The notes beneath the pieces were generated by a model that was not told the origin of the DNA, searched no databases, and saw only the letters and a program-made list of their open reading frames with translations. This document shows, in pieces, positions 9,190 through 34,366 of a stretch of 41,485 bases of DNA; position 1 is the first letter of the stretch, and each line of letters starts with the position of its first letter. This DNA comes from Magnetococcales bacterium (GTDB lineage: Bacteria > Pseudomonadota > Magnetococcia > Magnetococcales > DC0425bin3). A program made the translations under genes and the position numbers. The stretch is from contig JADGBZ010000026.1 of assembly GCA_015231175.1 (NCBI GenBank), forward strand, positions 1-41,485. Reading direction: 5' to 3'.

Positions 9190-9541
9190 GGTCTCCAGGC
9201 CTCGGATACGGATGCAACAACCAGGTCGGGCCATACCCCCTTCGCAACTTTTGCGCCTGTTTGGTGATCACCCGCCTGGCTGCCGGGCTTGAACTTCCTT
9301 CCGAAGCGTGGCCAGAGTGGGTTTTTGCGTTGATATGGAAAATAGTGATTGAAGGATAGATGAAAATGATGCGATCATTGAACGCTCGACCATGTGCGCA
9401 AGCCTGACGGATGGGATTCCATGGGATTGAATGGCATGAGAATCCTGTCTGACGGTCATGGGAAGATCGGGTCGGCACGATTCCAGCATGAAAAATCACA
9501 CCATGATCGCAATGATCGGCGGCTTAACAGGAGGTGAGCGA
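9190..9541. other. Control region upstream of the hydrogenase operon
   Basis: This 352 bp gap lies between two divergent genes and must hold the promoter of the hydrogenase operon. An inverted repeat AATGAT-GCG-ATCATT occurs at 9365-9379 and could bind a dimeric regulator. At 9473-9488 the sequence CGGCACGATTCCAGCA has GG and GC separated by ten bases, like the -24/-12 elements of a sigma-54 promoter, but it deviates at three consensus positions. A strong AGGAGG ribosome binding site precedes the first gene at 9529-9534. No gene is apparent. Confidence 0.5.
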
Positions 9542-10594
9542 ATGGATGGGTTTTTGGTTCCCAAGGATGCCGTGCCGCGGTGGATACACCGGCTTGCACA
9601 AAAAAATACCGTTTATTTTCCGCAATCCTCAGGACGCTCCAGCCTCCGGTTCAAGCGCGTGCGGGAGGGATCCGAGATCCAGTTCGATCGCTACCATCCG
9701 ACCCTCGTGCCCCCGGGAAAAAAGCTGGCTCCGACACAGGAGATTCTGTTTCGTTACCGTAAAAAAGAGGGGGACGAAACGGAAATCGAGCCGGTGCTGG
9801 CGGAGGAGATCCAGATTCTGGCCGGGGTTAGGCCTTGTGATCTCAAGGGTATCCACCTGATGGACCAGGTGAACCAGGATGGGTATGGGGATCCCCACTA
9901 TCAGGCGCGGCGCGCCCACACCATCCTCATCGGCCACGACTGCCTGCGGCCTTGTGATGGGGCATGCTTTTGCGACGCGACCGGTTCCCTGCACTGGCGT
10001 CAAAACGCCGACATTTTTTTGACCTCGATGGATCATCAGGTTTTGGTGGAGATCGTGTCGGAGCGGGGCCGGGCTCTCTTGCAAGGGAGTGAGTTTCCCG
10101 TTTGCAAGGATGTGGCGGCCCAGAAGGCCCGGGCGGAGAGCCTGCGGGCCAACCCCTTCGGTCGCCAGTTGGCCGCTCCGGTGGCCCAGTTGCCTGCCCT
10201 CCTGGCCAGGCAGTGGCAATCTCCCATCTGGAGCAAGCATGTCGAGCACTGTTTCTCCTGCGGCACCTGCAACCTGGTCTGCCCAACCTGCTACTGCTTC
10301 AACGTCGAGGACGATTTTCACCTGACGGAGATCCAGGCTGGTCAGCGCACCCGAAGTTGGGACAGCTGCATGCTTCCCAAATTTTCGGAGGTAGCCGGCG
10401 GACATAATTTTCGGCCCCAGCCGGAAGCGCGCCAGCGGCATCGGGTCAAACGCAAGTTTGAATATTTGACCCATCGTTTCGAGGAAGGCAGCTTTTGCGT
10501 CGGATGTGGCCGGTGTGGCCGGCAATGTACCGCCGATATCGATATTTTCGATATCGTCAACGATCTCGTCACTCATGCGGAGGCGATGTCATGA
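9542..10594 (+). CDS. hydB: Group 3b hydrogenase iron-sulfur subunit (HydB/AsrA-like)
   Basis: A 350-residue cytoplasmic electron-transfer subunit of the HydB/AsrA family. After an N-terminal domain containing GVRPCDLKGIHLMDQV, the C-terminal third has two [4Fe-4S]-type cysteine sets: HCFSCGTCNLVCPTCYC near residues 239-256 and FCVGCGRCGRQC near 318-330. It should pass electrons between the hydrogenase small subunit and the flavin subunit coded next. ATG at 9542 is chosen because AGGAGG lies 7 nt upstream; in-frame starts before it would add a non-conserved leader. It overlaps the next gene by 4 nt (ATGA), marking the start of a tightly coupled operon. Confidence 0.92.
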   Translation: MDGFLVPKDAVPRWIHRLAQKNTVYFPQSSGRSSLRFKRVREGSEIQFDRYHPTLVPPGKKLAPTQEILFRYRKKEGDETEIEPVLAEEIQILAGVRPCDLKGIHLMDQVNQDGYGDPHYQARRAHTILIGHDCLRPCDGACFCDATGSLHWRQNADIFLTSMDHQVLVEIVSERGRALLQGSEFPVCKDVAAQKARAESLRANPFGRQLAAPVAQLPALLARQWQSPIWSKHVEHCFSCGTCNLVCPTCYCFNVEDDFHLTEIQAGQRTRSWDSCMLPKFSEVAGGHNFRPQPEARQRHRVKRKFEYLTHRFEEGSFCVGCGRCGRQCTADIDIFDIVNDLVTHAEAMS

Positions 10595-11457
10595 CCATGC
10601 CGACTGCTGCCACCCACCCGACGTTTGACAAGGCGTTGTATCTTCCCCGCATGGCCCGGATTCTTGAGGTCCGGGCCATGACGCCCCGGGAGAAATATTT
10701 CAAGATCGAGCTGCCGCAACCCCTCGGGCATCGTCCGGGACAGTTTGTCATGCTCTCGCTTCTGGGGTTGGGCGAGGCCCCCATCTCCATCTCGTGTGGA
10801 CCACGGGATGACAACATTCTGGAAATGGTCATTCGCAACGTCGGCAGCCTGACCCGGGTTCTGCACGGTTTGCAACCCGGCCAGCAGGTGGGTGTGCGTG
10901 GACCCTTCGGTTCCGGTTTCCATCTGGCCGATTTTTATGGCAAGGATGTCCTGTTTGTGGTGGGGGGGTTGGGATTGGTACCCCTGCGTTCCCTGATTCA
11001 GCCCGTACTGGCCCAGTCGGAGCGGTTCGGCACCATCACCATTGTCAGTGGCTGTCGCACCCCGGCGGACGAACTCTACCGGGAAGAGACCATCGCCTGG
11101 TCGCGCCTGGATGGTGGCCGGGGAAAAATCAACGTGATCCGCCTGGTGGATGACACCGCCAGCCTGCCGTGGGATGGGGCTGTCGGACTGGTGACAGAGC
11201 CCATCGCGGATTTGCGCATGGATGCGGGGCGCACAGTTGTGGCCCTCTGCGGCCCGCCCGTCATGTACAAGTTTGTCATCATGGAGCTGACAGCCAGGGG
11301 TATTCCCCACAGCCAGATCTTTGTTGACCTGGAGCGGCGGATGAAATGCGGTGTCGGTAAGTGTGGACACTGCCAGATCAACCATGTCTACTGTTGTCAG
11401 GATGGACCGGTATTCCGACTTGACCGTATCGAAAATCTTCCCGAGGCCTTGCAATGA
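10591..11457 (+). CDS. hydG: Group 3b hydrogenase flavin/NAD(P) subunit (HydG-like)
   Basis: A 288-residue member of the ferredoxin-NADP reductase family. The FAD-binding half contains RPGQFVMLSLLGLGEAPISI near residues 48-67. The nucleotide-binding half begins with VLFVVGGLGLVPLRSLI, followed by the substrate/pyridine-nucleotide motif CGPPVMYKFV. The C-terminus carries CGVGKCGHC and a later CC pair, forming the [2Fe-2S] site typical of PyrK/HydG/AsrB proteins. In characterised group 3b enzymes this subunit couples H2 oxidation or evolution to NADP(H). It overlaps both neighbours by 4 nt. Confidence 0.92.
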   Translation: MTMPTAATHPTFDKALYLPRMARILEVRAMTPREKYFKIELPQPLGHRPGQFVMLSLLGLGEAPISISCGPRDDNILEMVIRNVGSLTRVLHGLQPGQQVGVRGPFGSGFHLADFYGKDVLFVVGGLGLVPLRSLIQPVLAQSERFGTITIVSGCRTPADELYREETIAWSRLDGGRGKINVIRLVDDTASLPWDGAVGLVTEPIADLRMDAGRTVVALCGPPVMYKFVIMELTARGIPHSQIFVDLERRMKCGVGKCGHCQINHVYCCQDGPVFRLDRIENLPEALQ

Positions 11458-12236
11458 AACCGAAAGTCGCGTTTTTTGATTTTGCCGGCTGTGAAGGTTG
11501 CCAGTTGACCGTGCTCAACTGCGAGGATGTGTTCCTGGATCTGCTTGCCTTGGTGGATATCGTCGAGTTTCGTGAAGCCATGTCGAACAAGGCGCCACGT
11601 TATGACGTTGCCTTCATCGAGGGGAGCATCAACCGCGAAGAGGATGCCCAAAAGTTGCGGGATATTCGTGCCCGCAGCACCTATTTGGTGGCCATGGGCG
11701 CCTGCGCCTGCATGGGCAACGTCCAGGCCCGCTCCAATTTTGTCGCGCCGGCGGAAAACTTCAAACGGGTCTACGGCGAAGCGGCCCGCAACCAGGTCCA
11801 GACCGATCCCGACTATTGGCCCCTGTGGGCGCACACCCGGGTGCGGGCGGCCAAGGAGATCGTGGCCGTTGATTTTGAACTGCGCGGCTGCCCCATGGTG
11901 GCGGAAGAGTTTGTGCGCCTGGTCAAAGCCCTGGTCAGCGGTTCCCTTCCTTACTTCCCGGCCAATGCCGTATGCGTCGAGTGTAAAATGAACGAAAACG
12001 AATGCGTTTTCGATCGCGGCGAGGTTTGTATGGGACAGGTCACCTACGGAGGTTGCAACGCCGTCTGCATCACCCACGGGTATCGCTGTGACGGCTGCCG
12101 TGGAACCTTGCCCCATGCCAACATGGTGGCCCACCGGGAGTTGCTGCGGAAGAAAGGACTCTCCGCTGCCCTTATCCAGAACCGGTACCGCCTGTTTTGC
12201 AGTACGGAGCCGCCAGGACGGGAGAATCGCTCATGA
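11454..12236 (+). CDS. hydD: Group 3b [NiFe] hydrogenase small subunit
   Basis: A 260-residue small subunit without a Tat signal, so the enzyme is cytoplasmic. The N-terminus has FDFAGCEGCQLTVLNCED, the proximal-cluster ligands. Further cysteines are in GACACMGN, in RGCPM, and in a C-terminal run around residues 174-220 (CVECKMNENECVF, CMGQVTYGGCNAVC, CDGC) that can hold the medial and distal [4Fe-4S] clusters. The pattern matches the small subunits of sulfhydrogenase-type group 3b enzymes. It is translationally coupled by 4 nt overlaps to hydG and to the large subunit gene. Confidence 0.93.
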   Translation: MKPKVAFFDFAGCEGCQLTVLNCEDVFLDLLALVDIVEFREAMSNKAPRYDVAFIEGSINREEDAQKLRDIRARSTYLVAMGACACMGNVQARSNFVAPAENFKRVYGEAARNQVQTDPDYWPLWAHTRVRAAKEIVAVDFELRGCPMVAEEFVRLVKALVSGSLPYFPANAVCVECKMNENECVFDRGEVCMGQVTYGGCNAVCITHGYRCDGCRGTLPHANMVAHRELLRKKGLSAALIQNRYRLFCSTEPPGRENRS

Positions 12237-13540
12237 GAGCCGACACCAAAACCTACAGCATCGACGTTCACCACGTCACCCGTGTCGAAGGCCACGGCAG
12301 CATTCGCATCAACACACGTGATGGGGTGGTGGAAGAGGTCAAACTTTGTATCGTCGAGGCCAACCGCTTCTTCGAGAGCTTCACCCGTGGCATGATGCCG
12401 GATGAGATTCCCTGGGTGGTGGGACGGATCTGCGGCATCTGTTGTGTCGGCCACCAATTGGCTGCCACCAAGGCGGTGGAAGATGCCCAGAAAATCGTCG
12501 TCTCCCCGCAGACGATCCAATTGCGCAAAATGCTCAATGAATCCCAGTTTTTGCAAAGCCATGTCCTGCATGTCTATTTTCTGGCCGTGCCCGATTTTGT
12601 CGGAGCCCCCAGCGTATTGCCCTTGATCAAAACCCACCCGGAGGTGGTGAAACGGGCGCTGCGCCTGAAAAAATTGGCCAATGACTATACGGCGGTCATC
12701 GGTGGCCGCACCATCCACCCCATGAGCAACACCCTGAAAGGGTGGCGCGTGCTGCCGGATCTGGATCAGGTCGAGCTGTTGCGGGATCGCCTGCTGGCGG
12801 CAGTGCCGGATCTTCTGGAGACCGTCGGCATCGTCAAAACCCTGAAAATTCCCCCCTATGAGCGGGAAACCGAGTTTGTCTCCCTGAAACATCCCGATGA
12901 ATATGCCCTCTATGACGGAGAGGTGTTCAGCTCGGATACAAAGCGGGGGATACCTGTCTCCGACTACCGCTCGGCGACCAATGAATTCACGGTCACCCAC
13001 TCCACCACCAAGTGGTCGCGCTGGCACCGGGAGGCCTACGCCGTCGGCGCCCTGGCGAGGGTGAACAACAGTTTCGAACAACTCCACCCGCAGGCACAAG
13101 AAGTCGCCGTTGAATTGGGGTTGAAGGTGCCCTGCTTCAACCCCTATATGAACAATGTCGCCCAGGTGGTGGAGATCGTCCACTGCGCCTACAACAGTCT
13201 GGCCATGATGGAAAATCTTCTCAATGGCCGCTTGTTGGACGAAGATATCCACCATACCCCCATTCCGGGGCGAGGCTTTGGCGCCGTCGAGGTGCCACGA
13301 GGGATTCTCTTCCACGAATACGCCTTCGATGCCGAGGGGCGTTGTTGTGATGCCAACGCCATCATCCCCACCAGCCAGAACATCAACAATATCGAACAGG
13401 ATATGAAAGCCTTTGTCCCGCTCATGTTGCCGGAAATGTCCAAGGATCAGCTGACGCTGCACATGGAGATGCTTCTGCGCGCCTACGACCCTTGCATCTC
13501 TTGCTCGGTACACATGCTGGATATCGATTTTGTCGATTGA
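12233..13540 (+). CDS. hydA: Group 3b [NiFe] hydrogenase large (catalytic) subunit
   Basis: A 435-residue catalytic subunit. The N-terminal motif VTRVEGHGSI is followed by the L1 motif RICGICCVGH (Cys67, Cys70) and the C-terminal L2 motif DPCISCSVH (Cys421, Cys424); these four cysteines should ligate the Ni-Fe centre. Eight residues (MLDIDFVD) follow His427, the expected cleavage site of the maturation protease encoded next. DPCISCSVH and EAPRGI-like VEVPRGILFHEY place it with group 3b enzymes. An extra cysteine, Cys71, sits directly beside a nickel ligand. Start ATG at 12233 overlaps the small subunit stop by 4 nt. Confidence 0.95.
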   Translation: MRADTKTYSIDVHHVTRVEGHGSIRINTRDGVVEEVKLCIVEANRFFESFTRGMMPDEIPWVVGRICGICCVGHQLAATKAVEDAQKIVVSPQTIQLRKMLNESQFLQSHVLHVYFLAVPDFVGAPSVLPLIKTHPEVVKRALRLKKLANDYTAVIGGRTIHPMSNTLKGWRVLPDLDQVELLRDRLLAAVPDLLETVGIVKTLKIPPYERETEFVSLKHPDEYALYDGEVFSSDTKRGIPVSDYRSATNEFTVTHSTTKWSRWHREAYAVGALARVNNSFEQLHPQAQEVAVELGLKVPCFNPYMNNVAQVVEIVHCAYNSLAMMENLLNGRLLDEDIHHTPIPGRGFGAVEVPRGILFHEYAFDAEGRCCDANAIIPTSQNINNIEQDMKAFVPLMLPEMSKDQLTLHMEMLLRAYDPCISCSVHMLDIDFVD

Positions 13541-13546
13541 ACGGGC

Positions 13547-14080
13547 ATGCCAGAGTTGACCGTGGTGGGTATCGGGAGCCGGTATGGGCGCGATGATGCG
13601 GTGGGGCTGCTGCTGGTGGAGACCCTGTCGGCGTCGGCCACCCGCCACGTCAGGACGCAAGTATGGGAAAATGCCGACGCCCTGACCCTGGTGCATGACC
13701 TGCTCGAACTGACCGGTCCGGTCCTTGTCGTCGATTGCGCCGATATGGGGTTGAAAGGTGGGGAGTGGCGCTTTCTGACCTGGCAGGAGGGGCGCTGTCG
13801 GTATCACCGCAGTTCGGTCTCCACCCATGGCCTGGGCATGGCCGAGGCCCTCGCCATGGCCAGGGATCTGGGTTTTACCCACCCGATCCATCTGTTTGGT
13901 GTGCAACCATTTGATCTTTCACCATTCCAAGGTTTGACAACCGAAATGCAGGGGTTTTTTTCGGCTGCGCTGCAAGCGTTGGAGGCGACGATTTGCCGAC
14001 TTCTCGGAGTCGTGGACTCTGCCATCGCACCCATATGTCGGCGAGCAGGGAGGGAGTCATGTGTTTGGCCATCCCCATGA
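13547..14080 (+). CDS. Hydrogenase maturation protease
   Basis: A 177-residue protein of the HycI/HyaD/HybD endopeptidase family, which trims the C-terminus of the large subunit after nickel insertion. The N-terminus VVGIGSRYGRDDAVG is the family GxGNxxxxDDxxG block, with Ser-Arg in place of the usual Asn region; VVDCADMG near residue 62 supplies the second acidic site and the STHGLGMAE segment the conserved His. It lies 6 nt after the large subunit gene, whose MLDIDFVD tail is its predicted substrate. The last ~25 residues are poorly conserved in appearance and overlap the hypC start by 22 nt. Confidence 0.88.
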   Translation: MPELTVVGIGSRYGRDDAVGLLLVETLSASATRHVRTQVWENADALTLVHDLLELTGPVLVVDCADMGLKGGEWRFLTWQEGRCRYHRSSVSTHGLGMAEALAMARDLGFTHPIHLFGVQPFDLSPFQGLTTEMQGFFSAALQALEATICRLLGVVDSAIAPICRRAGRESCVWPSP

Positions 14081-14346
14081 AAATCATCGCCATCGCTGAA
14101 GATGGCCAGACGGGAACAGTTGACCTGGATGGGGTGCGCTATGCGGTTGGGTTGATGTTGTTGGACAAGCCCGCCGTGGGGGATTACGTCATCGTACACG
14201 CCGGCTATGCCATCGAAAAACTGGACACGGCGGAGGCGGATGCCCGCTTGGCGCTGTTCGTTTCCCTGGCCGAGGTGTATGAACGGGAACTGGGTCAGGA
14301 GGTGGTCTGGGTGGCTCCGTCGCCGCCACGGGGCCATGGCGCATGA
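14059..14346 (+). CDS. hypC: Hydrogenase assembly chaperone HypC
   Basis: A 95-residue HypC/HybG-family chaperone. It begins MCLAIPMKI, with Cys2 as the residue that holds the iron in the HypC-HypD complex and later contacts the large subunit. The body VDLDGVRYAVGLMLLD...VGDYVIVHAGYAIEKLD is the standard small beta-barrel. GGGAGG precedes the start at 14059. It overlaps the protease gene by 22 nt and hypD by 4 nt. Confidence 0.95.
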   Translation: MCLAIPMKIIAIAEDGQTGTVDLDGVRYAVGLMLLDKPAVGDYVIVHAGYAIEKLDTAEADARLALFVSLAEVYERELGQEVVWVAPSPPRGHGA

Positions 14347-15443
14347 ACTACATGGACGGTTTTCGCCGCCTGGAGGCTGCCGTTCACTTTCGTGCGCGCC
14401 TGGCCGGTCACGGTCGTGCGCTGGCCGGACAGGGACGCAAGGTCCATCTCATGGAGGTGTGCGGCAGCCACACCATGGCCATTGCCCGCTATGGCATCAG
14501 GGGTTTTCTTCCCGAGCAGGTGGCATTGGTCAGTGGCCCGGGTTGCCCGGTGTGCGTGACCGATCCTGGCTTGATCGACGTGGCCATCACCCTGGCCGGG
14601 CAGGGGGTGATCGTGGCCACCTTCGGGGATATGGTTCGGGTTCCCGGTTCCCATGCCACCCTGGCCAAAGCCCGGGCAGCGGGGGGACGCATCGAAATTT
14701 GTTACTCGCCGCTGCAAGCCCTGCAACTGGCGATTCACCATCCGGAAAGCGAAGTGGTCTTTCTGGCGGTGGGGTTTGAAACCACGATCGCGCCGATTGT
14801 GGCCATGCTGGATACGGCCATGCGCCAGGGCGTTGCCAATCTCTCCTTGTTGACGGCTTTCAAGCTTGTCCCGCCTGCCCTTGACGCCTTGCTGGCCGAT
14901 CCTGACATCCGCATCGATGGTCTGCTCTGTCCAGCCCATGTCAGCGCCATCATCGGCGCCGATGCCTATCGCCCCTACGCCGAACGGCACGGGGTGGCCT
15001 GCGTGGTGGCCGGGTTTGAACCCCTGGACATCCTGTATGGCCTGGATGGTCTGGTCGAGCAACTGGTGACGAACAAACCGTGTGTGGACAATCAATACAG
15101 TCGCGTCGTCAAAGCCGAAGGCAACCGGCAGGCGCAACGACTCATGGCACACTATCTGGAGCCCGCTGCCGCCGCCTGGCGGGGTTTGGGGAGCATACCG
15201 GAAAGCGCCCTGGTGCTGCGGCGGCAGTTTGCCCGATACGACGCATTGCAACGCCACGGTTTGACTCTGCAACCGGGACGGCACAATCCACGCTGCCTGT
15301 GTGGAGAGGTTCTCAAGGGCAAGATACGTCCGAGGGAGTGCTCCCTTTTTGGCGTGGCATGTTTGCCGGAACAACCTTTGGGACCATGCATGGTCAGCTC
15401 CGAAGGGAGCTGCGCGGCTGAATACAAATACGAAGAGTGCTGA
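14343..15443 (+). CDS. hypD: Hydrogenase maturation factor HypD
   Basis: A 366-residue iron-sulfur scaffold on which the Fe(CN)2CO unit of the hydrogenase is built, together with HypC. Signature motifs are MEVCGSHTMAI near residue 37, VSGPGCPVCVT near 67, FLAVGFETTIAP near 140 and CVVAGFEPLDIL near 220. The C-terminal cysteines in NPRCLCGEVLKG, RECSLFGVAC and CMVSSEGSCAAE form the [4Fe-4S] site. Full length and intact. Start overlaps hypC by 4 nt; the stop is 10 nt before hypE. Confidence 0.96.
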   Translation: MNYMDGFRRLEAAVHFRARLAGHGRALAGQGRKVHLMEVCGSHTMAIARYGIRGFLPEQVALVSGPGCPVCVTDPGLIDVAITLAGQGVIVATFGDMVRVPGSHATLAKARAAGGRIEICYSPLQALQLAIHHPESEVVFLAVGFETTIAPIVAMLDTAMRQGVANLSLLTAFKLVPPALDALLADPDIRIDGLLCPAHVSAIIGADAYRPYAERHGVACVVAGFEPLDILYGLDGLVEQLVTNKPCVDNQYSRVVKAEGNRQAQRLMAHYLEPAAAAWRGLGSIPESALVLRRQFARYDALQRHGLTLQPGRHNPRCLCGEVLKGKIRPRECSLFGVACLPEQPLGPCMVSSEGSCAAEYKYEEC

Positions 15444-15453
15444 AGTGGTCACC

Positions 15454-16458
15454 ATGAGCGAATCCATTCTGTTGGGGCATGGCGGGGGGGGTCGGTTGTC
15501 CCAACAACTGATTGCGCGGGAAATCCTGCCGCGTTTTGGCGATGGACCGCTGCGGACGTTGCCGGACGCCGCCGCACTGGAGTTATCCTCTTGCCAGATT
15601 CGTTTCTCCACCGACAGCTTCGTGGTGCAGCCCCTGGAGTTTCCCGGCGGCAACATCGGGGATCTGGCAGTACATGGCACGGTCAACGATCTGGCGGTGG
15701 CCGGCGCCGTGCCACGCTGGCTCTCCCTGGCCTTGATCCTGGAGGAGGGATTGCCCCTGGTCACCCTGCGCAGGGTGTTGGATGCCCTCCAGCGGGCCGC
15801 CCATCAGTGCGGGGTGGTTGTGGCCACCGGAGATACCAAGGTGGTCAGGCGTGGCCAGTGCGATGGCATGTACATCAACACCTCCGGCATCGGCGAGGCG
15901 TTGCCGGGTTTTTCCCTGGGCGTGGAGCATCTCGTCCCGGGCGACCGGATCCTGGTCAGTGGTACGTTGGGCGACCATGGTATGGCGGTGCTTTCGGCGC
16001 GTGAAGGTCTCCAGGTACACAACGGCCCGGTCAGCGACTCCCGGCCTCTCCATCGTCTGGTGCAAGCCGTGCAGACCTGGGCGCCGGAAATCCGCTTCAT
16101 GCGCGATCCAACCCGGGGAGGGTTGGCTGCGGTCCTGAACGAAATGGTCATGGGACGGGAGGTGGGTTTGCATGTGCGCGAGAGTGCTCTACCCTATGCG
16201 CCCGGGACCAAAGCCATGGCGGAGGTGTTGGGTCTGGATCTGCTGCATGTGGCTTCCGAAGGGTGTCTGGTGCTGCTGTGCGCCGCCGGGGTGGCGGAAA
16301 AAATATTGGCGTGTTGGCACGCCTTGCCCGAGGGGGTGGGAGCCAAAGAGATTGGCTGGGTGACGCAGCGACGTGGCCGGGTGATACTGGAAACATCCAT
16401 CGGAGGAGAACGGGTGGTCGATCTGCCCGGTGGAGAGCTTCTGCCAAGGATTTGCTGA
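15454..16458 (+). CDS. hypE: Carbamoyl dehydratase HypE
   Basis: A 334-residue member of the PurM/SelD-like ATP-dependent family that converts a carbamoyl group on its C-terminal cysteine to thiocyanate, the source of the cyanide ligands. The N-terminus has LLGHGGGGRLSQQL, and MRDPTRGGLAAVLNEM lies near residue 215. The protein ends PRIC, so the essential terminal cysteine is present. Start ATG at 15454 matches the family N-terminus; an in-frame start at 15301 would run back through hypD. HypF, which must supply the carbamoyl group, is not encoded in this window. Confidence 0.95.
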   Translation: MSESILLGHGGGGRLSQQLIAREILPRFGDGPLRTLPDAAALELSSCQIRFSTDSFVVQPLEFPGGNIGDLAVHGTVNDLAVAGAVPRWLSLALILEEGLPLVTLRRVLDALQRAAHQCGVVVATGDTKVVRRGQCDGMYINTSGIGEALPGFSLGVEHLVPGDRILVSGTLGDHGMAVLSAREGLQVHNGPVSDSRPLHRLVQAVQTWAPEIRFMRDPTRGGLAAVLNEMVMGREVGLHVRESALPYAPGTKAMAEVLGLDLLHVASEGCLVLLCAAGVAEKILACWHALPEGVGAKEIGWVTQRRGRVILETSIGGERVVDLPGGELLPRIC

Positions 16459-16802
16459 TGCACGAGTTGAGTCTGGCCACGGCCATGGTGGATCAGGTGC
16501 AGGAGATCATGGCGCGGGAGAAAGTGCGGAAGCTGGTTTCCATTACGGTGGCCATAGGGGCGTTGAGTGGAGTCGAACGTGAATCCTTCCGTTTTTGTTA
16601 TCCCCTGGCGATTGAAGGCACCCCCCTGGATGGTGCGGAACTCCATGTAGAGGAAGTGCCGCTTCGGCTCCTTTGCCTGGATTGTGGTCAGGAGTCGCAA
16701 CCGGAGGAAATTTATCTCCTGCATTGTGCAGTGTGTCGGTCGGGCCGGGTGGAGATTCTCTCCGGCCAGGATTTTGTGATTCGTTCCCTGGAGGTGCAGT
16801 GA
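16458..16802 (+). CDS. hypA: Hydrogenase nickel incorporation protein HypA
   Basis: A 114-residue nickel metallochaperone. The N-terminal MHEL provides the His2/Glu3 nickel site, and the C-terminal zinc domain has CLDCG and CAVC (near residues 74-77 and 91-94). It delivers nickel to the large subunit with HypB. The start overlaps the hypE stop by one base (TGATG) and the stop overlaps the hypB start in the same way. Confidence 0.95.
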   Translation: MHELSLATAMVDQVQEIMAREKVRKLVSITVAIGALSGVERESFRFCYPLAIEGTPLDGAELHVEEVPLRLLCLDCGQESQPEEIYLLHCAVCRSGRVEILSGQDFVIRSLEVQ

Positions 16803-17773
16803 TGTGTCGGGATTGTGGTTGCGACGCCGGTCTTGAACAACTCTCACGCACGCATGGACGTTCTCACGACCGGGGCGAGTGCCATGATGGACACCACCAT
16901 CACCATGAAGATGGGGAGCATGCCCACACGACACACCACCACCACCATCACCATGCGGATGGGGAGCATGCCCACACGACACACCACCATTCTCACGACC
17001 GGGGCGAGTGCCATGATGGACACCACCATCACCATGCGGATGGGGAGCATGCCCACACGACACACCACCATCACCTCGAAGATGATGAGCCTGTCCGTGT
17101 GGAAAGGTTGCACGAGGATCGAACCATCCATCTCGAAACCAGGGTTCTGGCCAAAAATGCGGCCATCGCCGCAGACAATCGCCAGTGGCTGGCGGAGCGC
17201 AACGTCAAGGCCATCAACCTGATTTCTTCTCCGGGTGCAGGGAAAACCCTCCTCCTGGAGCGCACCCTGGAGCGTTTGCGTGGCCGTATCCCGTGTGCGG
17301 TCATCGTCGGCGATCTCCAAACCGACAACGATGCGCGTCGCCTGCGGGGCAAAGGAGCACCCGTGCATCAGATCGAGACGGGTCACTCCTGTCACCTGGA
17401 TGCCGGACAGGTAGGGCGAATGTTGGCCCACGCCGTACCAAAGGGGACACGTCTCCTGATTATTGAAAATGTTGGTAATCTGGTCTGTCCTGCCGCCTTC
17501 GATCTGGGCGAGGAGGTGAAAATTGCCCTCCTCTCCGTCACCGAAGGTGAAGACAAGCCGCTGAAATATCCGACACTCTTCTATCAAACCCCGGTGGTGC
17601 TGATCACCAAGGTGGATTTGGCGCCCCACCTTGTCTGGGACAGGGAGCGGTGCCGCAACAACATTTTGCAAGTTCGCCCCGATGCGCATATCCTGGAACT
17701 GAGTGCCACGCAGGGCACGGGGATGGAAGTCTGGATCCAATGGCTGGAACGAGCGGTCTACCAGAATGTCTGA
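16802..17773 (+). CDS. hypB: Hydrogenase nickel GTPase HypB with His-rich domain
   Basis: A 323-residue G3E-family GTPase. It starts MCRDCGC, the high-affinity nickel motif. Residues ~20-97 are an extended histidine-rich segment built from repeated HHHHHADGEHAHTTHHH and HDRGECHDG units; the DNA is repeated too. The GTPase domain follows with ISSPGAGKT (P-loop), VGDLQTDNDA, ENVGNLVCPA and ITKVDLAPHL (base recognition). The His-rich part should store or buffer nickel, as in other HypB proteins of this type. It ends 8 nt inside the histidine kinase gene, so the regulatory pair is part of the same operon. Confidence 0.95.
   Translation: MCRDCGCDAGLEQLSRTHGRSHDRGECHDGHHHHHEDGEHAHTTHHHHHHHADGEHAHTTHHHSHDRGECHDGHHHHHADGEHAHTTHHHHLEDDEPVRVERLHEDRTIHLETRVLAKNAAIAADNRQWLAERNVKAINLISSPGAGKTLLLERTLERLRGRIPCAVIVGDLQTDNDARRLRGKGAPVHQIETGHSCHLDAGQVGRMLAHAVPKGTRLLIIENVGNLVCPAAFDLGEEVKIALLSVTEGEDKPLKYPTLFYQTPVVLITKVDLAPHLVWDRERCRNNILQVRPDAHILELSATQGTGMEVWIQWLERAVYQNV
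16862..17070 (+). repeat. Intragenic repeats coding for the HypB His-rich tract
   Basis: Within hypB, GACCGGGGCGAGTGCCATGA occurs at about 16869 and again at about 16999, and ATGGGGAGCATGCCCACACG followed by ACACACCACCA occurs three times (about 16912, 16960 and 17039). The near identity at third codon positions shows recent duplication of a histidine-coding module and not only selection for protein composition. Confidence 0.85.
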
Positions 17774-19217
17774 AGCCGAAACGCAGTCGGTGCAGGGTCG
17801 CAACCCCTTCTTCGCCGGGGAAGCCGATCACATTTGTGAAGAAGGCATGCGCGCCACGGAGATGTCCGAGCGAAGTGCCTGGTTCATTCAAACCCGTTGG
17901 ATCTCAGTGATTTTATGCTCCTTGGCAGCCATTGGGGCCACTCAGTTGCCCCTCGGGAGGATGGCTGGATGCACCATCGATTTTCGGTATTTTCTGGTCG
18001 TTTCCACACTGCTGGCTGGCAGTAACCTGATTTATCGGCGGCTGGCGAAAGCCATGGTGGCCGACCCGTCGGCCAAGAGGCCAATGTGCCGGTTTCTTGC
18101 CGTCCAGGTGGTGACGGATTTTATCAACCTGTCGATTCTCACCTACGGTTTGGGGGGTGTCGAGACGCCGGTCCTGATTCTCTTTCTGCCGCACATCATC
18201 CTTGTGACCCTGTTTTTTTCGCGATTTTACAGCTTCATCATGACGTGGGTGGGAACTTTGTTTGCCACTCTGCCCATGTTGTTGGAATATCAGGGAATCA
18301 TTCCGACGCTCTCCATTTTCGACACGGCACGGAAGGTGGCCCGTATCAGCTCCAATCCGGTGATCACGGCGGGATACACCCTGGGTATCGCGGCAGCCTA
18401 TCTTGTTTGTTGGTATCTGGTCAGCACCATCACCGCAAGCCTGCGCCTGCGCGAACAGGAGTTGGAACAGGCGTATGCGCGTCTGCAACTTCTTGCGCAG
18501 GAAAAATCCCAGGTCACCTTGCGGGCAACCCATGAACTGAAGGCGCCCTTTGCTGCCATCAAAAGTTATGTCTACACCTTGCGGGATGGCTATTGCGGCG
18601 CCTTGCCGGAAAAAGCGCAAGCGGTGGTGGTGCGGATCGGCGAGCGGTGCGATCTGCTCATGGAAAAAATTTCCGATATCATCCACCTGAGCAACCTGCG
18701 CACGGCTACACCCGCAAGCTCACCCCTGGCTGAGGTCGATCTCGGAGCTGTCGTGGGCAAGGAGGTGGAAGAGACACGGCTGATTGGACAGGTGCGGAGC
18801 ATCACGGTTCAGCTTCAGGCGGGAGAGGTGAACCATCCCATCATGGCGGCGCAGGAGCATCTGCACACTCTGGTCTCCAATCTGTTGCGCAATGCGGTCA
18901 ACTATTCCAAGCCTGGTGGTGTGGTCGAGGTTGCCCTTGACCTTCGGGAACGGCATATCGTCCTGCATATCCAGGATCATGGCATCGGCATTCCCACTGA
19001 ACATCTCGACAAGATTTTCGATGAACACTTCCGATCCAACAACGCCGTTCGCCACAACCCCAACAGCAGCGGCATGGGGCTGGCGTTGGTCAAGGAGATC
19101 GTCCGGTTGCACGGGGGCGATATTCAGGTATCCAGCCAACTTGGCGAGGGTTCACGCTTCAGCGTCACCTTCCCACGTTTGCAGCATCAACCCAAGACGG
19201 GAGACGAACATGGCTAA
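17766..19217 (+). CDS. Membrane-bound sensor histidine kinase
   Basis: A 483-residue kinase. Five or six hydrophobic helices span residues ~45-225 with very short loops, so the sensor is probably the membrane domain itself. A coiled segment leads to the H-box ATHELKAPFAAIKSYV with phospho-acceptor His256. The ATPase domain has the N-box NLLRNAVNYSKPGG, G1 QDHGIGIP and G2 SSGMGLALVKEIV. No HAMP, PAS or periplasmic domain is seen. The start at 17766 overlaps hypB by 8 nt, and the stop overlaps the response regulator start. Its place at the end of the hydrogenase operon suggests it responds to a condition tied to H2 or redox state; the signal is unknown. Confidence 0.9.
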   Translation: MSEAETQSVQGRNPFFAGEADHICEEGMRATEMSERSAWFIQTRWISVILCSLAAIGATQLPLGRMAGCTIDFRYFLVVSTLLAGSNLIYRRLAKAMVADPSAKRPMCRFLAVQVVTDFINLSILTYGLGGVETPVLILFLPHIILVTLFFSRFYSFIMTWVGTLFATLPMLLEYQGIIPTLSIFDTARKVARISSNPVITAGYTLGIAAAYLVCWYLVSTITASLRLREQELEQAYARLQLLAQEKSQVTLRATHELKAPFAAIKSYVYTLRDGYCGALPEKAQAVVVRIGERCDLLMEKISDIIHLSNLRTATPASSPLAEVDLGAVVGKEVEETRLIGQVRSITVQLQAGEVNHPIMAAQEHLHTLVSNLLRNAVNYSKPGGVVEVALDLRERHIVLHIQDHGIGIPTEHLDKIFDEHFRSNNAVRHNPNSSGMGLALVKEIVRLHGGDIQVSSQLGEGSRFSVTFPRLQHQPKTGDEHG

Positions 19218-19608
19218 GATTCTTGTGATCGATGACGATCAGGATATCATCGACACCCTGACCATGATTCTGGAGAGCCAGGGTTACACGGTGGCGACCA
19301 AGGGGGATATGGAGAACCTGATCGACGAGGTCAGGGCTATTCATCCCGACCTGATCCTCCTGGATATCATGATGCCAGAGGATTCTCAGGCTGGATTCAA
19401 GGCGGCGCGAACCCTGCACAAGGATAAAAACGTCGGAAAAATTCCTGTCCTGATCCTTTCCGCTGTCAACCAAAGGAGCAATCTCTCGTTTGGTTTTTCC
19501 GAAAGCGACATCGGGTCGGACTTTCTGCCCGTCGAGGCCTTCATCGAAAAACCTGTTGAACCAAAGATTCTGCTCCATAAAATCGAGCAGTTGCTGGGCT
19601 CGCACTAG
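19210..19608 (+). CDS. Single-domain response regulator
   Basis: A 132-residue receiver domain with no output domain. Conserved acidic residues are in VIDDDQD, the phospho-acceptor Asp52 is in LLDIMMP, and the switch residues are in LILSAVN and FIEKPVEP. The loop after the Asp, DSQAGFKAARTLHKD, is a variant in which the usual MDGLE is replaced. It overlaps the histidine kinase by 8 nt, so the two are certainly made together. With no DNA-binding domain it must act by protein contact or as a phosphorelay step. Confidence 0.92.
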   Translation: MAKILVIDDDQDIIDTLTMILESQGYTVATKGDMENLIDEVRAIHPDLILLDIMMPEDSQAGFKAARTLHKDKNVGKIPVLILSAVNQRSNLSFGFSESDIGSDFLPVEAFIEKPVEPKILLHKIEQLLGSH

Positions 19609-19691
19609 CCTCTCGGGAGCAGCGGTCATGCGGCGCCGTGCGGAAACGGAGCATCTGCGGGAGCGTGCCCCCTGGTGTGGGTGTGAGCGGG

Positions 19692-20288
19692 TCATGCCCG
19701 AAGGCTGTTGACATAACTGGTCAGGGCACTGAGGCATTGAGCGAAGGTCTCGATGCTCTGGGTGTTTTTGGCCATACCGATGCACCCTTCCAGGGCGGCA
19801 ACCAGAAACAACCCCACGGCCTCGGGGTCGATGTCGCGGCGCACTTCGCCCAGCGCCTGGGCCTGGCGCAAACCCGTGGCCAACTCTCCGCGCCACCAGG
19901 AGAAAACCCGATCCACCCGCAGACGAAACCCTTCGTCAACGGATGACATCTCCTGGGCTAGGTTGTTCAAGGGGCATCCGAGCAGGGCGAGGGTTTCGCC
20001 CCGCTCGGCCATGGCCCTCTTCATGTTCAGAAGCAGTCCGTCTATAAAAGGAAGCCGCTCCCCTTTCCGGCTGAAAAACCCCTCTTCCAGACGCGACCGC
20101 AATACTTCATCCACCACGGCATATCCCAACTCCTGTTTGCTCTTGAAGTAGTGATACATGGCCCCCTTGGTCATTCCCGCACGGGCCAGAATGTTGTTGA
20201 GGCTTGCGGCATTATAGCCGTGTCGGTGCATCTCCTCGAAGGCCGCCATCAGCAGGCGTTGTCTGGTTTCATCGGGGTTGCGGGTCAT
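19692..20288 (-). CDS. TetR/AcrR family transcriptional repressor
   Basis: A 198-residue regulator. The N-terminal helix-turn-helix is clear: RQRLLMAAFEEMHRHGYNAASLNNILARAGMTKGAMYHYFKSKQEL (residues ~8-53). The C-terminal ligand domain includes LLGCPLNNLAQEMSS near residue 102, characteristic of the TetR_C_16/YxaF-like group. It is the second gene of a two-gene unit, 27 nt after the carboxymuconolactone-decarboxylase-like gene, whose promoter has two palindromic sites. It is therefore likely to repress its own operon and lift on binding of a reactive or aromatic small molecule; the ligand is unknown. Confidence 0.92.
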   Translation of the reverse strand: MTRNPDETRQRLLMAAFEEMHRHGYNAASLNNILARAGMTKGAMYHYFKSKQELGYAVVDEVLRSRLEEGFFSRKGERLPFIDGLLLNMKRAMAERGETLALLGCPLNNLAQEMSSVDEGFRLRVDRVFSWWRGELATGLRQAQALGEVRRDIDPEAVGLFLVAALEGCIGMAKNTQSIETFAQCLSALTSYVNSLRA

Positions 20289-20315
20289 GCCGTATCACAA
20301 CGCTCCATGGATTGA

Positions 20316-20846
20316 TCAGCATGCGGTCACATCGACCTTGAAGGTGTTGAAAACGATATCTGCCGCAACGTTGTTGGCGCCATGCAGAATGGCGTCCAGA
20401 ATGTCTCTGTCCGACCATCCCTGTTGCCTTGCTGCTTCCAGATCATGGGCAGTCACGGCCAGTGGCTCAGCCACCGCTTTCAGCACCAGTTGCAACAAGC
20501 CAATCTCCTCCTTGGCCAGCGGCGCCAGGGCAGGATCCCGCCGGGCGGCGTCAATGGCTCCCGGGGAGATGCCGGACTTTTGCAGGATAGCGATGTTCAG
20601 GCCGATACAGAAGGGGGCTTGCATGCGCTCCGATACCAAAAGCCGGATGAAGGCGAGCAGTCCCATGCTCAGGCGGGGATGGTGCAGATAGTACTGCATT
20701 CCTGCCCAACGCTGTTCAAGAATCTCTGGACTGAGAGCAAAAAGCTTCATGCCCTCAGGAACTTTTCCGAAAAGGTCGCTGATGGCGTTCATGACGGCTT
20801 CGACACGGACTTCCTCACCTGCGGGGGGTTGGGGAGAAATCAACAT
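20316..20846 (-). CDS. Carboxymuconolactone decarboxylase/AhpD-like protein
   Basis: A 176-residue all-helical protein with the AhpD/CMD fold: the segment RLLVSERMQAPFCIGLNIAILQKSG resembles the family core, but it has one cysteine in place of the redox CxxC pair, so thiol peroxidase-type activity is doubtful. Related proteins often sit next to TetR regulators and are implicated in stress or detoxification. GGAGG lies 9 nt before the start at 20846, downstream of the operator pair at 20923-20968. The exact reaction cannot be told from sequence. Confidence 0.8.
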   Translation of the reverse strand: MLISPQPPAGEEVRVEAVMNAISDLFGKVPEGMKLFALSPEILEQRWAGMQYYLHHPRLSMGLLAFIRLLVSERMQAPFCIGLNIAILQKSGISPGAIDAARRDPALAPLAKEEIGLLQLVLKAVAEPLAVTAHDLEAARQQGWSDRDILDAILHGANNVAADIVFNTFKVDVTAC

Positions 20847-20975: not shown

Positions 20976-21212
20976 GCGCAATATCGGCATCGCCCGAAAA
21001 AAAAATGTTCCAAATGGGAACGGATCGCGGTTTACTTGCAGAAAAACAAAGGGATGGCATGGCGATGGCGATGGCCTATCTTTTTGGATCGGCAATGCGT
21101 AGAATCAGATCCCTGGAATGCTTCAGGATCATACGGGATGCCTCATGAATCTGGTCGCACCAATCGCTCGCCCGCCCATGCCAAGTCAGGCAGCCCAAAG
21201 GGAAGAAGTGGA

Positions 21213-22172
21213 ATGCCGCTCTATTTGGTGACCGGAGGCGCCGGTTTCATAGGGTCTCACTTGGTGGAGCGTTTGTTGCGCCAGGGAGACCAGGTTCGCG
21301 TGTTGGATGATCTCTCCACCGGATCCCTGGCGAATGTTCCCCCCGGAGTGGAGTTCATACAGGGTGATGTGGCGTGCGCCAAGCCGGTCAGGGAGGCGAT
21401 GTGGGGTGTTGTCGGGTGTTTCCACCTGGCAGCGGTCGCCTCGGTCGAGCAATCCAACCGGGAGTGGGTCGCCGTGCATCGCGTGAACCAGACCGGGACG
21501 ATACAGGTGTTTTCCGCCGTCCGGGATCTCTCACCCGATGCCCCCATACCTGTGGTGTATGCCTCCTCGGCGGCGGTTTATGGCGACAACCCGGTGATGC
21601 CGTTGACCGAGGCCATGTGCCCGACACCGATGACGGCCTATGGAGCCGACAAGCTGGGGTGCGAACTCCATGCCCGCGCCGCAGGCCTGGTCCATAAAAT
21701 TCCCAGTATGGGGCTGCGTTTTTTCAATGTTTATGGTCCACGCCAGGATCTTTATTCTCCCTACTCTGGAGTGATCTCCATGTTCATGGAGCGGGCGCAA
21801 CGTGGAGAGAATCTGAAGATCTTTGGGGATGGGCACCAGGTACGCGATTTTGTTTTTGTGCAGGATGTGGTGGAGATGATGATCCGGGCCATGGCACGGG
21901 CGCATATGGGTGGAGTGGTTCTCAACGTGTGTACCGGGCGGGCTACATCCATTTTGGAGTTGGCCGGCCTGGTGAACCGTCTCTGCGGGAATCCGCTCCC
22001 CGTGGTGCATCATCCGGCCCGCCCGGGGGATATACGGTTATCCATGGGGGATCCAGTCCAGGGAGAAAAAATTCTGGGTTTGCGGGCAGGAGTATCCCTG
22101 GAAGATGGGCTGCAAATCCTGCTTGACTGGCGGAAAAAGGAGCCGCAAACCCGTTTGACCTGCCCAGGGTGA
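21213..22172 (+). CDS. NAD-dependent sugar-nucleotide epimerase/dehydratase (SDR)
   Basis: A 319-residue extended short-chain dehydrogenase. VTGGAGFIGSHLVERLL is the NAD-binding site, YASSAAVYG holds the catalytic serine region and YGADK is the YxxxK motif (near residue 148). The overall look is that of a UDP-glucose 4-epimerase-like enzyme, but 4-epimerases, 4,6-dehydratases and other reactions share these motifs, so the substrate is open. The start at 21213 gives the canonical N-terminus MPLYLVTGGAG; upstream in-frame starts lie in non-conserved sequence. First gene of the glycan locus; it overlaps the next by 4 nt. Confidence 0.9.
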   Translation: MPLYLVTGGAGFIGSHLVERLLRQGDQVRVLDDLSTGSLANVPPGVEFIQGDVACAKPVREAMWGVVGCFHLAAVASVEQSNREWVAVHRVNQTGTIQVFSAVRDLSPDAPIPVVYASSAAVYGDNPVMPLTEAMCPTPMTAYGADKLGCELHARAAGLVHKIPSMGLRFFNVYGPRQDLYSPYSGVISMFMERAQRGENLKIFGDGHQVRDFVFVQDVVEMMIRAMARAHMGGVVLNVCTGRATSILELAGLVNRLCGNPLPVVHHPARPGDIRLSMGDPVQGEKILGLRAGVSLEDGLQILLDWRKKEPQTRLTCPG

Positions 22173-22801
22173 GTCAGATGCAGAAGGTCAAGGTGTTCAT
22201 TCAGGCCCGCATGTCCTCCCGGAGATTTCCGGGCAAGGTGCTGGCGCCTTTTCGCGGACGGCCCTTGATCATGAGCGTGGTTGATGCGGTGGCCCGGGTC
22301 GTGGCGAGGGATGACATCGTCGTGGTCACCAGTATCGAGGCCTCCGATGACCCTTTGGCCCTGTTTCTGGCAACTCGCCAGGTCAAGGTTTTCCGGGGTG
22401 AATTAGACCGGGTGTTCAGCCGTTTTTGCGCGGCCATCCAGGACCACCCGTGTGACTGGGTCGTGCGCATCTGTGGAGACAGCCCGCTGTTGGATCCGGA
22501 AATTCTGGCTCTGGTCTTGAATCGTGTCGACTCTCCAGCGGATGTGGTGACCACCTTGGCTCCGCGAACAGTTCCCAGGGGGCATGCCGTCGAAATGGTG
22601 CGCGCCGGGTTGTTTCAAACCCTGGACGCGCATCTTTTGACGCCCCATGAGCAGGAACACGTTACGCCCGTGTTTTACCGGGAGTCTGGCCGGTTTCGGC
22701 TGGAAAACGTCCTCCATCCGGGGGGGGATCTCTCCGGTCTGAGTTATGTCGTGGATACCGTGGAGGATTTGCACAAATTGGAGAGAGAACATGCAGGATG
22801 A
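22169..22801 (+). CDS. Cytidylyltransferase family protein (SpsF/NeuA-like)
   Basis: A 210-residue nucleotidyltransferase with VFIQARMSSRRFPGKVLAPFRGRPLI at the N-terminus, the pattern of SpsF-type cytidylyltransferases, and DWVRICGDSPLLDPE near residue 95, where the metal-binding Asp is expected. These enzymes activate sugars as CMP derivatives. With the NeuB-type synthase at 28065 it could supply a CMP-nonulosonate donor. GTG at 22169 overlaps the preceding stop (GTGA); ATG at 22178 is an alternative start. The 3' end overlaps the next gene by 11 nt. Confidence 0.87.
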   Translation: MSQMQKVKVFIQARMSSRRFPGKVLAPFRGRPLIMSVVDAVARVVARDDIVVVTSIEASDDPLALFLATRQVKVFRGELDRVFSRFCAAIQDHPCDWVVRICGDSPLLDPEILALVLNRVDSPADVVTTLAPRTVPRGHAVEMVRAGLFQTLDAHLLTPHEQEHVTPVFYRESGRFRLENVLHPGGDLSGLSYVVDTVEDLHKLEREHAG

Positions 22802-23828
22802 TACACCGCACCGCGTGGGAGCCGCTGTCGTGGGGCTGGGTGTGGGAGAACAACATGCCCTGGCCTGCCTGCGTCACCCGGCTTGCCAGTTGCGCTGGGT
22901 TTACGATTTGCTGCCGAAAAAAGCCCACGGGTTTGTGGAGAGGCACGGGGTCGGGCGGGTTGCAACCAGCTACGAGGAGATTCTGGCCGATCCAGAGGTG
23001 CAACTGGTCTGTCTTGCCAGTTTTGATGACATGCATTTCCAGCAGACCGTAGCGGCGCTCCAGGCTGGCAAGCACGTGTTTGTCGAAAAGCCTTTGTGCC
23101 GGAGTCGAACAGAACTGGCGGTCATCCATGCCCTTTGGCGGGGTGGGCAGGGGAAGTTGCATCTGTCATCCAACCTTGTGTTGCGTGCCGCCCCGCTCTA
23201 TGATTGGCTCCGCCGTGCCATCCATGCGGGTCTGCTTGGGACGGTCTATGCCATTGACGGCGATTATCTCTACGGGCGTATCCACAAGATTACCGAGGGA
23301 TGGCGCAAGGATCTTGCGGATTATTCGGTCATGATGGGCGGCGGCATCCACCTTGTCGATCTGATGCTCTGGATTTCAGGGCAGAGGCCGAGCCACGTCC
23401 ACACGGTCGGCAACAAGGTTTGCACGCACGATGTTGCCGCATTCCGCTACAACGACTTCATGGCTGCGACCTTCACGTTTGCCTCCGGCCTGGTGGGTCG
23501 CATCACGGCCAACTTTGGGTGCGTCCACCGCCATCACCATGTGTTGCGGGTGTTTGGTGATCGCGGGACTTTCGTCTATGACGATCAGGGTCCACGTCTC
23601 CACACCAGCCGCGATCCGGCCCTGCTGGCGGCCCCGTTGGCGCTGGATCCGCTCCCGTCCCATAAAGGGGTTCTCATCCCGGATTTTGTGGAGGGTTTGG
23701 TGACGGGCCGGGATGCAACCCCGTCGGTCTTGCACGAGTTTGACCTGATCAGCGCTTGTTCCGCAGCCGACGACGCGCTCGCGGCGGGTCGGGCCGTGGC
23801 GATTGACTATATGGAACCGATGCCATGA
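22791..23828 (+). CDS. Gfo/Idh/MocA family oxidoreductase
   Basis: A 345-residue NAD(P)-dependent sugar oxidoreductase. The N-terminal Rossmann domain has AAVVGLGVGEQHALAC, and the family signature GKHVFVEKPLCRS lies near residue 100; the GGGIHLVDLMLW segment near residue 180 carries the catalytic His/Asp region. Such enzymes oxidise a sugar hydroxyl to a ketone, after which an aminotransferase can act. The DegT aminotransferase gene overlaps its stop by 4 nt, an arrangement known from WbpB/WbpE and similar 3-amino-sugar pathways. Confidence 0.9.
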   Translation: MQDDTPHRVGAAVVGLGVGEQHALACLRHPACQLRWVYDLLPKKAHGFVERHGVGRVATSYEEILADPEVQLVCLASFDDMHFQQTVAALQAGKHVFVEKPLCRSRTELAVIHALWRGGQGKLHLSSNLVLRAAPLYDWLRRAIHAGLLGTVYAIDGDYLYGRIHKITEGWRKDLADYSVMMGGGIHLVDLMLWISGQRPSHVHTVGNKVCTHDVAAFRYNDFMAATFTFASGLVGRITANFGCVHRHHHVLRVFGDRGTFVYDDQGPRLHTSRDPALLAAPLALDPLPSHKGVLIPDFVEGLVTGRDATPSVLHEFDLISACSAADDALAAGRAVAIDYMEPMP

Positions 23829-26022: not shown

Positions 26023-26068
26023 TGTGTGGCGCCATGGCCGATTCCAAGGAACGGACGAGTTAAACAGA

Positions 26069-27001: not shown

Positions 27002-27027
27002 AGAAGACACCTTTTAAATTTTTAGAT

Positions 27028-27173
27028 GAGTCCCCTGCAAAAAGTCCCCGGCTAGGATGTAAACATAGCAAAATCAACAGGTTATGTAGTTGCTCAGCAA
27101 TTAGTCAAATGCAATAAAATCAAGTAGTTGCGCGTGGCGGAAGTGCCCTTTCGGGACTTTTTGCAGGGGACTC
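27028..27173. mobile_element. MITE-like element with 21 bp perfect terminal inverted repeats
   Basis: The 146 bp element starts GAGTCCCCTGCAAAAAGT (27028) and ends with the exact inverse, finishing at 27173; the two 21 bp ends are perfect inverted repeats. It is flanked by the 6 bp direct repeat TTAGAT (27022-27027 and 27174-27179), as expected for a target-site duplication. The interior is AT-rich and codes for nothing. This is the structure of a non-autonomous transposable element moved by a transposase encoded elsewhere. The parent insertion sequence family is not identified. Confidence 0.88.
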
Positions 27174-27203
27174 TTAGATAGCTGCTTAACTTTGGGGTGT
27201 GTC

Positions 27204-27958: not shown

Positions 27959-28064
27959 AGATTTTGAAAAAGGAAATTTGGTTTAGGAGATATAAGGGTT
28001 CTTACCCAAAAAATCAGGTAGAGGTTGGGGTGTTTTATACAGGAAGATGGGAGGTTGATCGGTC

Positions 28065-29078: not shown

Positions 29079-29090
29079 GTCAAGCATGAT

Positions 29091-33286: not shown

Positions 33287-33311
33287 TTATTGCTCGGTTT
33301 GGGGATTGGAT

Positions 33312-34313: not shown

Positions 34314-34366
34314 TTTTGATTTAACGTAAAAATGTGGTTATTAGAATTTTTAAAAAAGGCTTGATA

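Follow-up and report, generated by a model that had tools for sequence, protein, structure and literature searches.

A kinase-receiver pair recurrently linked to group 3b-type [NiFe] hydrogenase genes in Magnetococcales and other bacteria

The operon, its hydrogenase and its kinase-receiver pair

The window analysed here is a whole contig of 41,485 bp (C26) from a Magnetococcales genome (labelled G000; 3.8 Mb in 175 contigs, 100% complete by a tool's estimate), and the system in question is a run of twelve plus-strand genes at positions 9542-19608, extending from the hydrogenase gene hydB to a response regulator gene (Table 1). A first-pass annotation of this DNA had described the twelve genes as tightly joined and forming one unit, and our analysis agrees: all are co-directional, with successive intergenic distances from hydB to the regulator of -4, -4, -4, +6, -22, -4, +10, -1, -1, -8 and -8 nt. 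With the kinase start set at the ATG at 17766, the two last overlaps tie hypB to the kinase gene and the kinase gene to the regulator gene. A promoter or terminator at the hypB-kinase join would have spoken against one unit; the scan of positions 9200-20400 finds no plus-strand promoter-like or terminator-like site there, its overall yield being three promoter-like sites (mean of 4.1 in shuffled sequences) and 17 terminator-like sites (mean of 10.0, standard deviation 2.9). The encoded proteins fall into the Pfam families Fer4_22, FAD/NAD-binding with a DHODB Fe-S domain, Oxidored_q6, NiFeSe_Hases, HycI, HypC, HypD, AIRS (HypE), HATPase_c and Response_reg; HypA and HypB are assigned by NCBIfam. 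The long histidine-rich N-terminus of HypB consists of repeated units, often without counterpart in relatives, in which matches begin near residue 106.

Table 1. Genes of the window operon, and fused HycI-HypF(C) reading frames in other loci
Feature	Position	Strand	Basis or remark
hydB, beta subunit, 4Fe-4S	9542..10594	+	Fer4_22; best NCBIfam match ShyB/HydB
hydG, gamma subunit, FAD/NAD(P)-binding with DHODB-type Fe-S domain	10591..11457	+	Pfam, NCBIfam
hydD, delta (small) subunit	11454..12236	+	Pfam, NCBIfam
hydA, alpha (large, catalytic) subunit	12233..13540	+	RICGICCVGH and DPCISCSVH intact
hycI/hyaD-type maturation endopeptidase, 177 aa including C-terminal tail	13547..14080	+	Pfam, NCBIfam
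hypC	14059..14346	+	Pfam, NCBIfam
hypD, sole copy found in genome	14343..15443	+	Pfam
hypE, C-terminal residue Cys intact	15454..16458	+	Pfam, translation
hypA	16458..16802	+	NCBIfam
hypB with histidine-rich N-terminal stretch	16802..17773	+	NCBIfam
Membrane histidine kinase, six predicted transmembrane helices, then DHp and ATPase domains	17766..19217	+	Pfam, structure model
Single-domain response regulator, 132 aa, receiver alone	19210..19608	+	Pfam
HycI-HypF(C) fusion	L041:8816-10444	+	
HycI-HypF(C) fusion	L043:7941-9563	-	
HycI-HypF(C) fusion	L044:7962-9563	-	
HycI-HypF(C) fusion	L047:7733-9349	-	
HycI-HypF(C) fusion	L048:6763-8415	-	
HycI-HypF(C) fusion	L050:6732-8324	-	
HycI-HypF(C) fusion	L098:3-1448	+	5'-truncated

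The full beta-gamma-delta-alpha set of subunits (Fe-S, FAD/NAD(P), small and large) is encoded in the order hydB-hydG-hydD-hydA. Among solved structures the best relatives of HydA are the alpha chains of cytosolic NiFe-hydrogenase and sulfhydrogenase 1, the group 3b alpha chain being matched at 3.6e-62, MvhA at 1.7e-54 and the NAD-reducing hydrogenase (5xf9) at 4.6e-33. Against NCBIfam, HydA scores 235 and 232 bits with the HydA and ShyA families, far under their equivalog cut-offs of 880 and 700 bits, 153 bits with VhuA and 121 bits with FrhA; its identity to other proteobacterial homologues, and likewise to the best plasmid-borne ones, is 33-38%. Judged by structures and family models rather than by a reference-group tree, HydA thus appears closer to group 3b than to groups 3a, 3c and 3d, yet distant. 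Both Ni-binding CxxC motifs are found in the translation. FAD/NAD-binding domains are present, and NADP(H) is the predicted redox partner. The best matches, which are to 3b, and the electron-transfer subunits speak against a sensory hydrogenase of group 2b or C1. A genome search for a further [NiFe] large subunit found none that carries the Ni-binding cysteines; its only other hit, a large-subunit-like gene beside proton-pump-like genes (L008, on contig C5), lacks these cysteines by eye and probably belongs to an Ehr/Nuo-like complex.

For the kinase, the structure model (mean predicted local distance difference test score, pLDDT, 81.0; predicted template modelling score, pTM, 0.55) gives six transmembrane (TM) helices (residues 30-60, 73-98, 104-128, 135-150, 153-176 and from 198 on), followed by dimerisation and ATPase domains. 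Its HisKA domain lies just below the Pfam cut-off (24.4-24.5 against 26.9) with a conserved H-box; H256, N372, N376, D404, G406 and G408 are invariant in the kinase alignment, as are Asp52 and Lys114 of the receiver in 23 sequences. With the phospho-accepting His, the ATPase motifs and the receiver Asp and Lys all conserved, the pair is by its sequence a two-component system. The 6TM_PilS family matches 19 of 27 kinase relatives weakly (the window kinase at 15.2 against a cut-off of 27). In a fold search with the kinase the best 50 matches are kinase structures over the cytoplasmic part and none covers the membrane sensor, and a plasmid search returned nothing close among the matches listed. 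Between TM3 and TM4 lies the motif YGLGG[VI]ETP. The RegB quinone motif, also placed between TM3 and TM4, is the heptad GGXXNPF; the two differ, and the kinase was not assigned to the RegB/PrrB redox kinases.

Linkage of the pair to the hydrogenase

Kinase orthologues (58-72% identity, at least 439 bits; the next best matches, at about 101 bits, cover the kinase core only) occur in 13 of 48 Magnetococcales genomes, in each of which at most 33 candidates were scored, and hydA orthologues (at least 78% identity) likewise in 13. The two are found together in 12 genomes (Fisher p = 2.4e-9, a value that overstates the case for related genomes); among the 27 near-complete genomes of the order, nine have both, none the kinase only, one hydA only and 17 neither. 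More widely, the hydA search covered the window's own phylum (398 genomes, 24 with a match at 1e-70) and the phyla of G403 (396 genomes, 14 at 1e-110), G400 (7 genomes, 2 with a match) and G404 (377 genomes, 6 with a match). A supported hydA clade (100/99) comprises 24 rows, and in 17 of them the pair lies 3' of the operon on the same contig (G000, G001, G018, G024, G027, G030, G031, G036, G042, G045, G400, G401, G402, G403, G530, G588 and G803). Elsewhere the contig ends on both sides (G043) or ends (G757), or the pair is on another contig (G406); in G003 one contig carries the pair, hycI and the maturation genes, with about 10 kb past hycI lacking hydA, and another carries hydBGDA, with about 2 kb past hydA lacking hycI.

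The gene directly before the pair is hypB in 10 of 19 loci, hycI in five, hypE in three and hydA in one (a count that includes G003 and G043, both excluded from the 17 of 24; the small contigs L098 and L101 are in neither). The link is therefore to the hydrogenase and not to hypB, as had been supposed at first. In most of the loci the kinase gene overlaps the receiver gene or ends within 25 nt of its start. A genome scan based on the kinase alignment yielded 22 loci, and 3b genes stand directly upstream of the pair also in one gammaproteobacterial, one deltaproteobacterial and three Acidobacteria metagenome-assembled loci. Twelve loci lie outside the order's own records (L098 included), eight of them in genomes with a hydA relative, and the L101 contig itself bears a hydA end; small contigs such as these two could be mis-binned. 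The pair thus recurs at the operon end in related genomes rather than being absent from other similar operons, and the earlier assignment of the pair to the hydrogenase operon is borne out by the 17 clade rows, the 12 co-occurrences and the spread over several bacterial groups. In G018 a 38-codon hydA 3' remnant (L136:9176-9289, minus strand) sits beside hycI and hyp genes while an intact hydBGDA-kinase-receiver set lies on another contig; the operon there seems to have been split by rearrangement.

Outside the clade, neither kinase nor receiver was found nearby in any of ten divergent 3b operons (33-38% HydA identity) with usable flanks, a count that excludes L123 (G277; a contig of 3.3 kb) and includes L125 (G011) with only about 3 kb on each side. 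Among 13 hydA relatives at 44-50% identity, a reversed receiver-kinase pair is found in G452 and G439, a receiver together with a kinase lacking the sensor part in G537, and a receiver in G687; neither gene is close to hydA in the stretch read in G415, G584, G776 (contig ending soon after hydA), G407, G408, G1108, G1013 (contig ending 1.8 kb after hydA), G1036 and G941, G407 and G408 having a distant kinase relative elsewhere. The reversed pairs were rejected as the same module: their kinases match at 28% and their receivers at 38-39%, and in the kinase tree the operon kinases stand on one side of a branch (100/100) with the two reversed-order kinases far off on the opposite side.

Downstream of the window operon, and convergent with it, are a TetR-family gene and a 176-aa gene without Pfam family at 0.001 (19692-20846, minus strand). 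Positions 21207-36364 hold a sugar-biosynthesis cluster (epimerases, cytidylyltransferase, DegT aminotransferase, NeuB, formyltransferase, asparagine-synthase-like and radical SAM genes), which by gene content probably makes a nonulosonic-acid type glycan.

HypF in the window genome and its relatives

The first-pass annotation had also reported that HypF is missing while the other general Hyp factors are present, implying a gap in maturation. This holds for the operon and the window contig, where HypC, HypD, HypE, HypA and HypB are encoded and no hypF was found, and fails for the genome: a full-length hypF (G000:C13:19173-21383, 703 bits) lies directly downstream of a moeA-like gene (named by eye) and encodes the acylphosphatase, finger, YrdC and Kae1-like domains. 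The genome contains no second hyp set (one HypD). In known HypE the C-terminal Cys, intact here, is the acceptor of the carbamoyl group. Since an unlinked full-length HypF is present, the enzyme can in principle be matured; this HypF, though of another lineage, could supply the cyanide precursor and so allow complete maturation.

Over the 48 Magnetococcales genomes HypF is full-length in ten and short in 11 (model positions about 377-740 only), never both. The 13 hydA-bearing genomes divide into nine with the short form only, two (G000 and G024) with the full-length form only and two (G031 and G044) with neither; in the last, 99% complete, locus L132 holds hydBGDA of the clade described above, and neither HypF nor a kinase orthologue was found. 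In the HypF tree (fragments L103, L146 and L138 dropped; two rows represent the same G018 gene) the short forms make one clade (100/100) close to the full-length protein of G024 and to the one encoded within the operon of G803, and the window genome's HypF falls in a different clade. A short HypF is present in G003, which belongs to the same genus as the window genome; read most simply, the window genome lost its short HypF gene and would now rely on an unlinked HypF of other descent.

Short HypF and the HycI peptidase share one open reading frame (ORF) in seven of ten loci with both parts readable (G036, G030, G027, G042, G045, G043 and L098; separate in G003, G001 and G018), the short HypF of G035 and G047 being outside the ten as hycI lies beyond the stretch covered. 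The complete fusions measure 531-551 aa, and no full-length HypF was found in the six order genomes that carry one. Pfam was run on five of the seven fusions and places both domains in one ORF in G027; six short or fused forms have HypF_C and HypF_C_2 only, plus HycI in five, whereas the full-length proteins of G000 and G803 have all domains (acylphosphatase, HypF fingers, YrdC and Kae1-like). The C-terminal motifs QHHxAH, DGxGxGxD and GGVFxN are conserved, and in a model of the G036 fusion (mean pLDDT 81.7, pTM 0.70) the two parts match HypF and HybD structures. A second short HypF (G092; L122:5512-6585, minus strand, a 382-aa frame) is encoded in a divergent 3b operon from a different family of Proteobacteria; its partner in the tree is a full-length HypF, and it is apparently independent of the Magnetococcales short form.

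A precedent is HypF1 of Cupriavidus necator, which according to an excerpt of PMC9100943 retains one of three domains, is apparently inactive anaerobically and likely needs carbamoyl adenylate; in the part consulted of a second study it is inactive, its synthesis being likewise unclear, and HypF2 is closer to its E. coli counterpart (PMC5350229). As far as these excerpts go, the HypF of the Magnetococcales relatives is likewise cut to one of three domains, but C. necator also has HypF2, whereas nine hydA-bearing relatives show the short form only, mostly fused to HycI. Genomes whose only detected HypF is a bare carbamoyltransferase domain, often fused to HycI, are the sharper side result of this work: the source of carbamoyl adenylate for a HypF without YrdC, raised for HypF1 in the same excerpt of PMC9100943, becomes a simple complementation question.

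Mode of control and comparison with known systems

Recurrence of the tail behind related hydrogenases in several groups of bacteria points to a dedicated control unit and not to a chance neighbour. We consider it fairly probable that the kinase and receiver are a control module of one group 3b-type subgroup, inherited with the enzyme and acting post-translationally or by relay; our confidence, drawn from gene content and conservation, is high for a dedicated functional link between pair and hydrogenase and modest for the mode of action. It is proposed that the kinase would read the state of the membrane or the respiratory chain and phosphorylate the receiver, and that the phosphorylated receiver would act by protein contact, with the hydrogenase or some step of maturation as its target, or would relay the signal to a regulator encoded elsewhere, whereby cytosolic H2/NADP(H) exchange would be tuned to the respiratory redox state without binding to the operon promoter. 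Self-regulation in the usual sense, as the first-pass annotation had suggested, would have the operon's own response regulator act directly on its transcription; gene linkage and overlap are what speak for it, but the receiver domain fills residues 6-127 of the 134 scanned, the Pfam scan finds no output or DNA-binding domain, and its 23 aligned relatives are about equally long. Direct promoter control by such a receiver is unlikely, and protein contact or relay is the better reading. The upstream sequences agree, as the best 10-mer shared upstream of hydB in 13 genomes occurs in 4 of 13 regions, with shuffles giving 3-5, and no site resembling the FNR or sigma-54 consensus lies near hydB; we regard direct self-regulation as largely refuted and hardly credible. 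An indirect form, in which the receiver passes its phosphate via a histidine-phosphotransfer (Hpt) protein to an unlinked DNA-binding regulator of the operon, is a more serious contender, though we think it rather unlikely. Bare receivers can serve as relay intermediates, the best NCBIfam match of the receiver is a DivK-like family (66.7 bits, under the cut-off of 160), and an orphan kinase in G002 (L040:2992-4437, minus strand) adjoins transglutaminase-like and Hpt/hybrid-kinase-like genes (by eye); against this, no conserved regulator gene was found beside the operons, the window TetR gene and its 176-aa neighbour have no match in the relatives' loci, and the lack of a common upstream motif or of FNR-like or sigma-54-like sites counts here as well.

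Several observations weigh against a control module inherited with the enzyme. G494, in the hydA clade, has no pair within about 8 kb of its operon; hydrogenase and pair are both present but unlinked in G404; and G044 has hydA and no orthologous kinase in the genome search, an absence subject to the limit of 33 candidates per genome. Conversely, G002 (76% complete) has a kinase (69% identity) in unrelated surroundings but neither hydA nor receiver, and G405 and G409 each hold a relative of the kinase but gave no match for hydA. A thiol switch was also considered and rejected: the DHp domain has two cysteines that never vary in 12 Magnetococcales kinases, but some of the other operon-linked kinases lack them. 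The kinases without detected hydA in G002, G405 and G409 could even suggest that an unrelated two-component pair came to lie behind the operon by chance, but the linkage persists across rearranged operons and phylum-level groups, co-occurrence is near-complete, and the pair is absent from the divergent 3b operons examined, which makes hitch-hiking very improbable.

A wider reading, which we offer only tentatively, combines the dedicated control module with the HypF results: in this kinase-linked 3b subgroup the membrane sensor and free receiver would act after translation, and in most Magnetococcales members a HycI-HypF(carbamoyltransferase) fusion would join cyanide-ligand synthesis to final proteolysis, with carbamoyl adenylate coming from another enzyme. 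The enzyme core itself is ordinary; the control tail is conserved and so far apparently unremarked, and the variation of HypF in relatives is unexpected. In our judgement the control of group 3b hydrogenases is little understood, and a pair travelling with one 3b subgroup is a direct handle on the signal that these hydrogenases answer.

Among the closest known systems are the group 3b SHI hydrogenases (sulfhydrogenases) of Pyrococcus and Thermococcus, whose subunit order is HydBGDA, as in the window; both have the four subunits, but the window operon adds the kinase-receiver pair and its HydA falls far below the equivalog cut-offs of the HydA and ShyA families. The kinase resembles PilS/RegB-type kinases in its six TM helices ahead of the kinase core, its weak 6TM_PilS matches and its GG-containing motif, and departs from them in scoring under the 6TM_PilS cut-off, in the motif itself and in having a partner without DNA-binding domain. 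The first-pass annotation had called the kinase linkage unusual, and with this the HydDB classification accords as far as the consulted part of its description goes, listing histidine-kinase-linked classes for groups 2b and C1 only (PMC5037454); an excerpt of PMC8542988 also describes a kinase beside a [FeFe] enzyme of group C1. In the open-access literature we found no report of a group 3b operon with a linked kinase, which is weak evidence of novelty. Group 2b (HoxBC/HupUV with HoxJ/HupT) and [FeFe] group C1, as represented in these excerpts, likewise show genetic linkage of hydrogenase and histidine kinase, and there the hydrogenase itself is taken as the H2 sensor (HydDB table, PMC5037454), whereas in the window the hydrogenase comes with electron-transfer subunits of its own to NAD(P)H and the kinase with a six-helix membrane sensor of its own.

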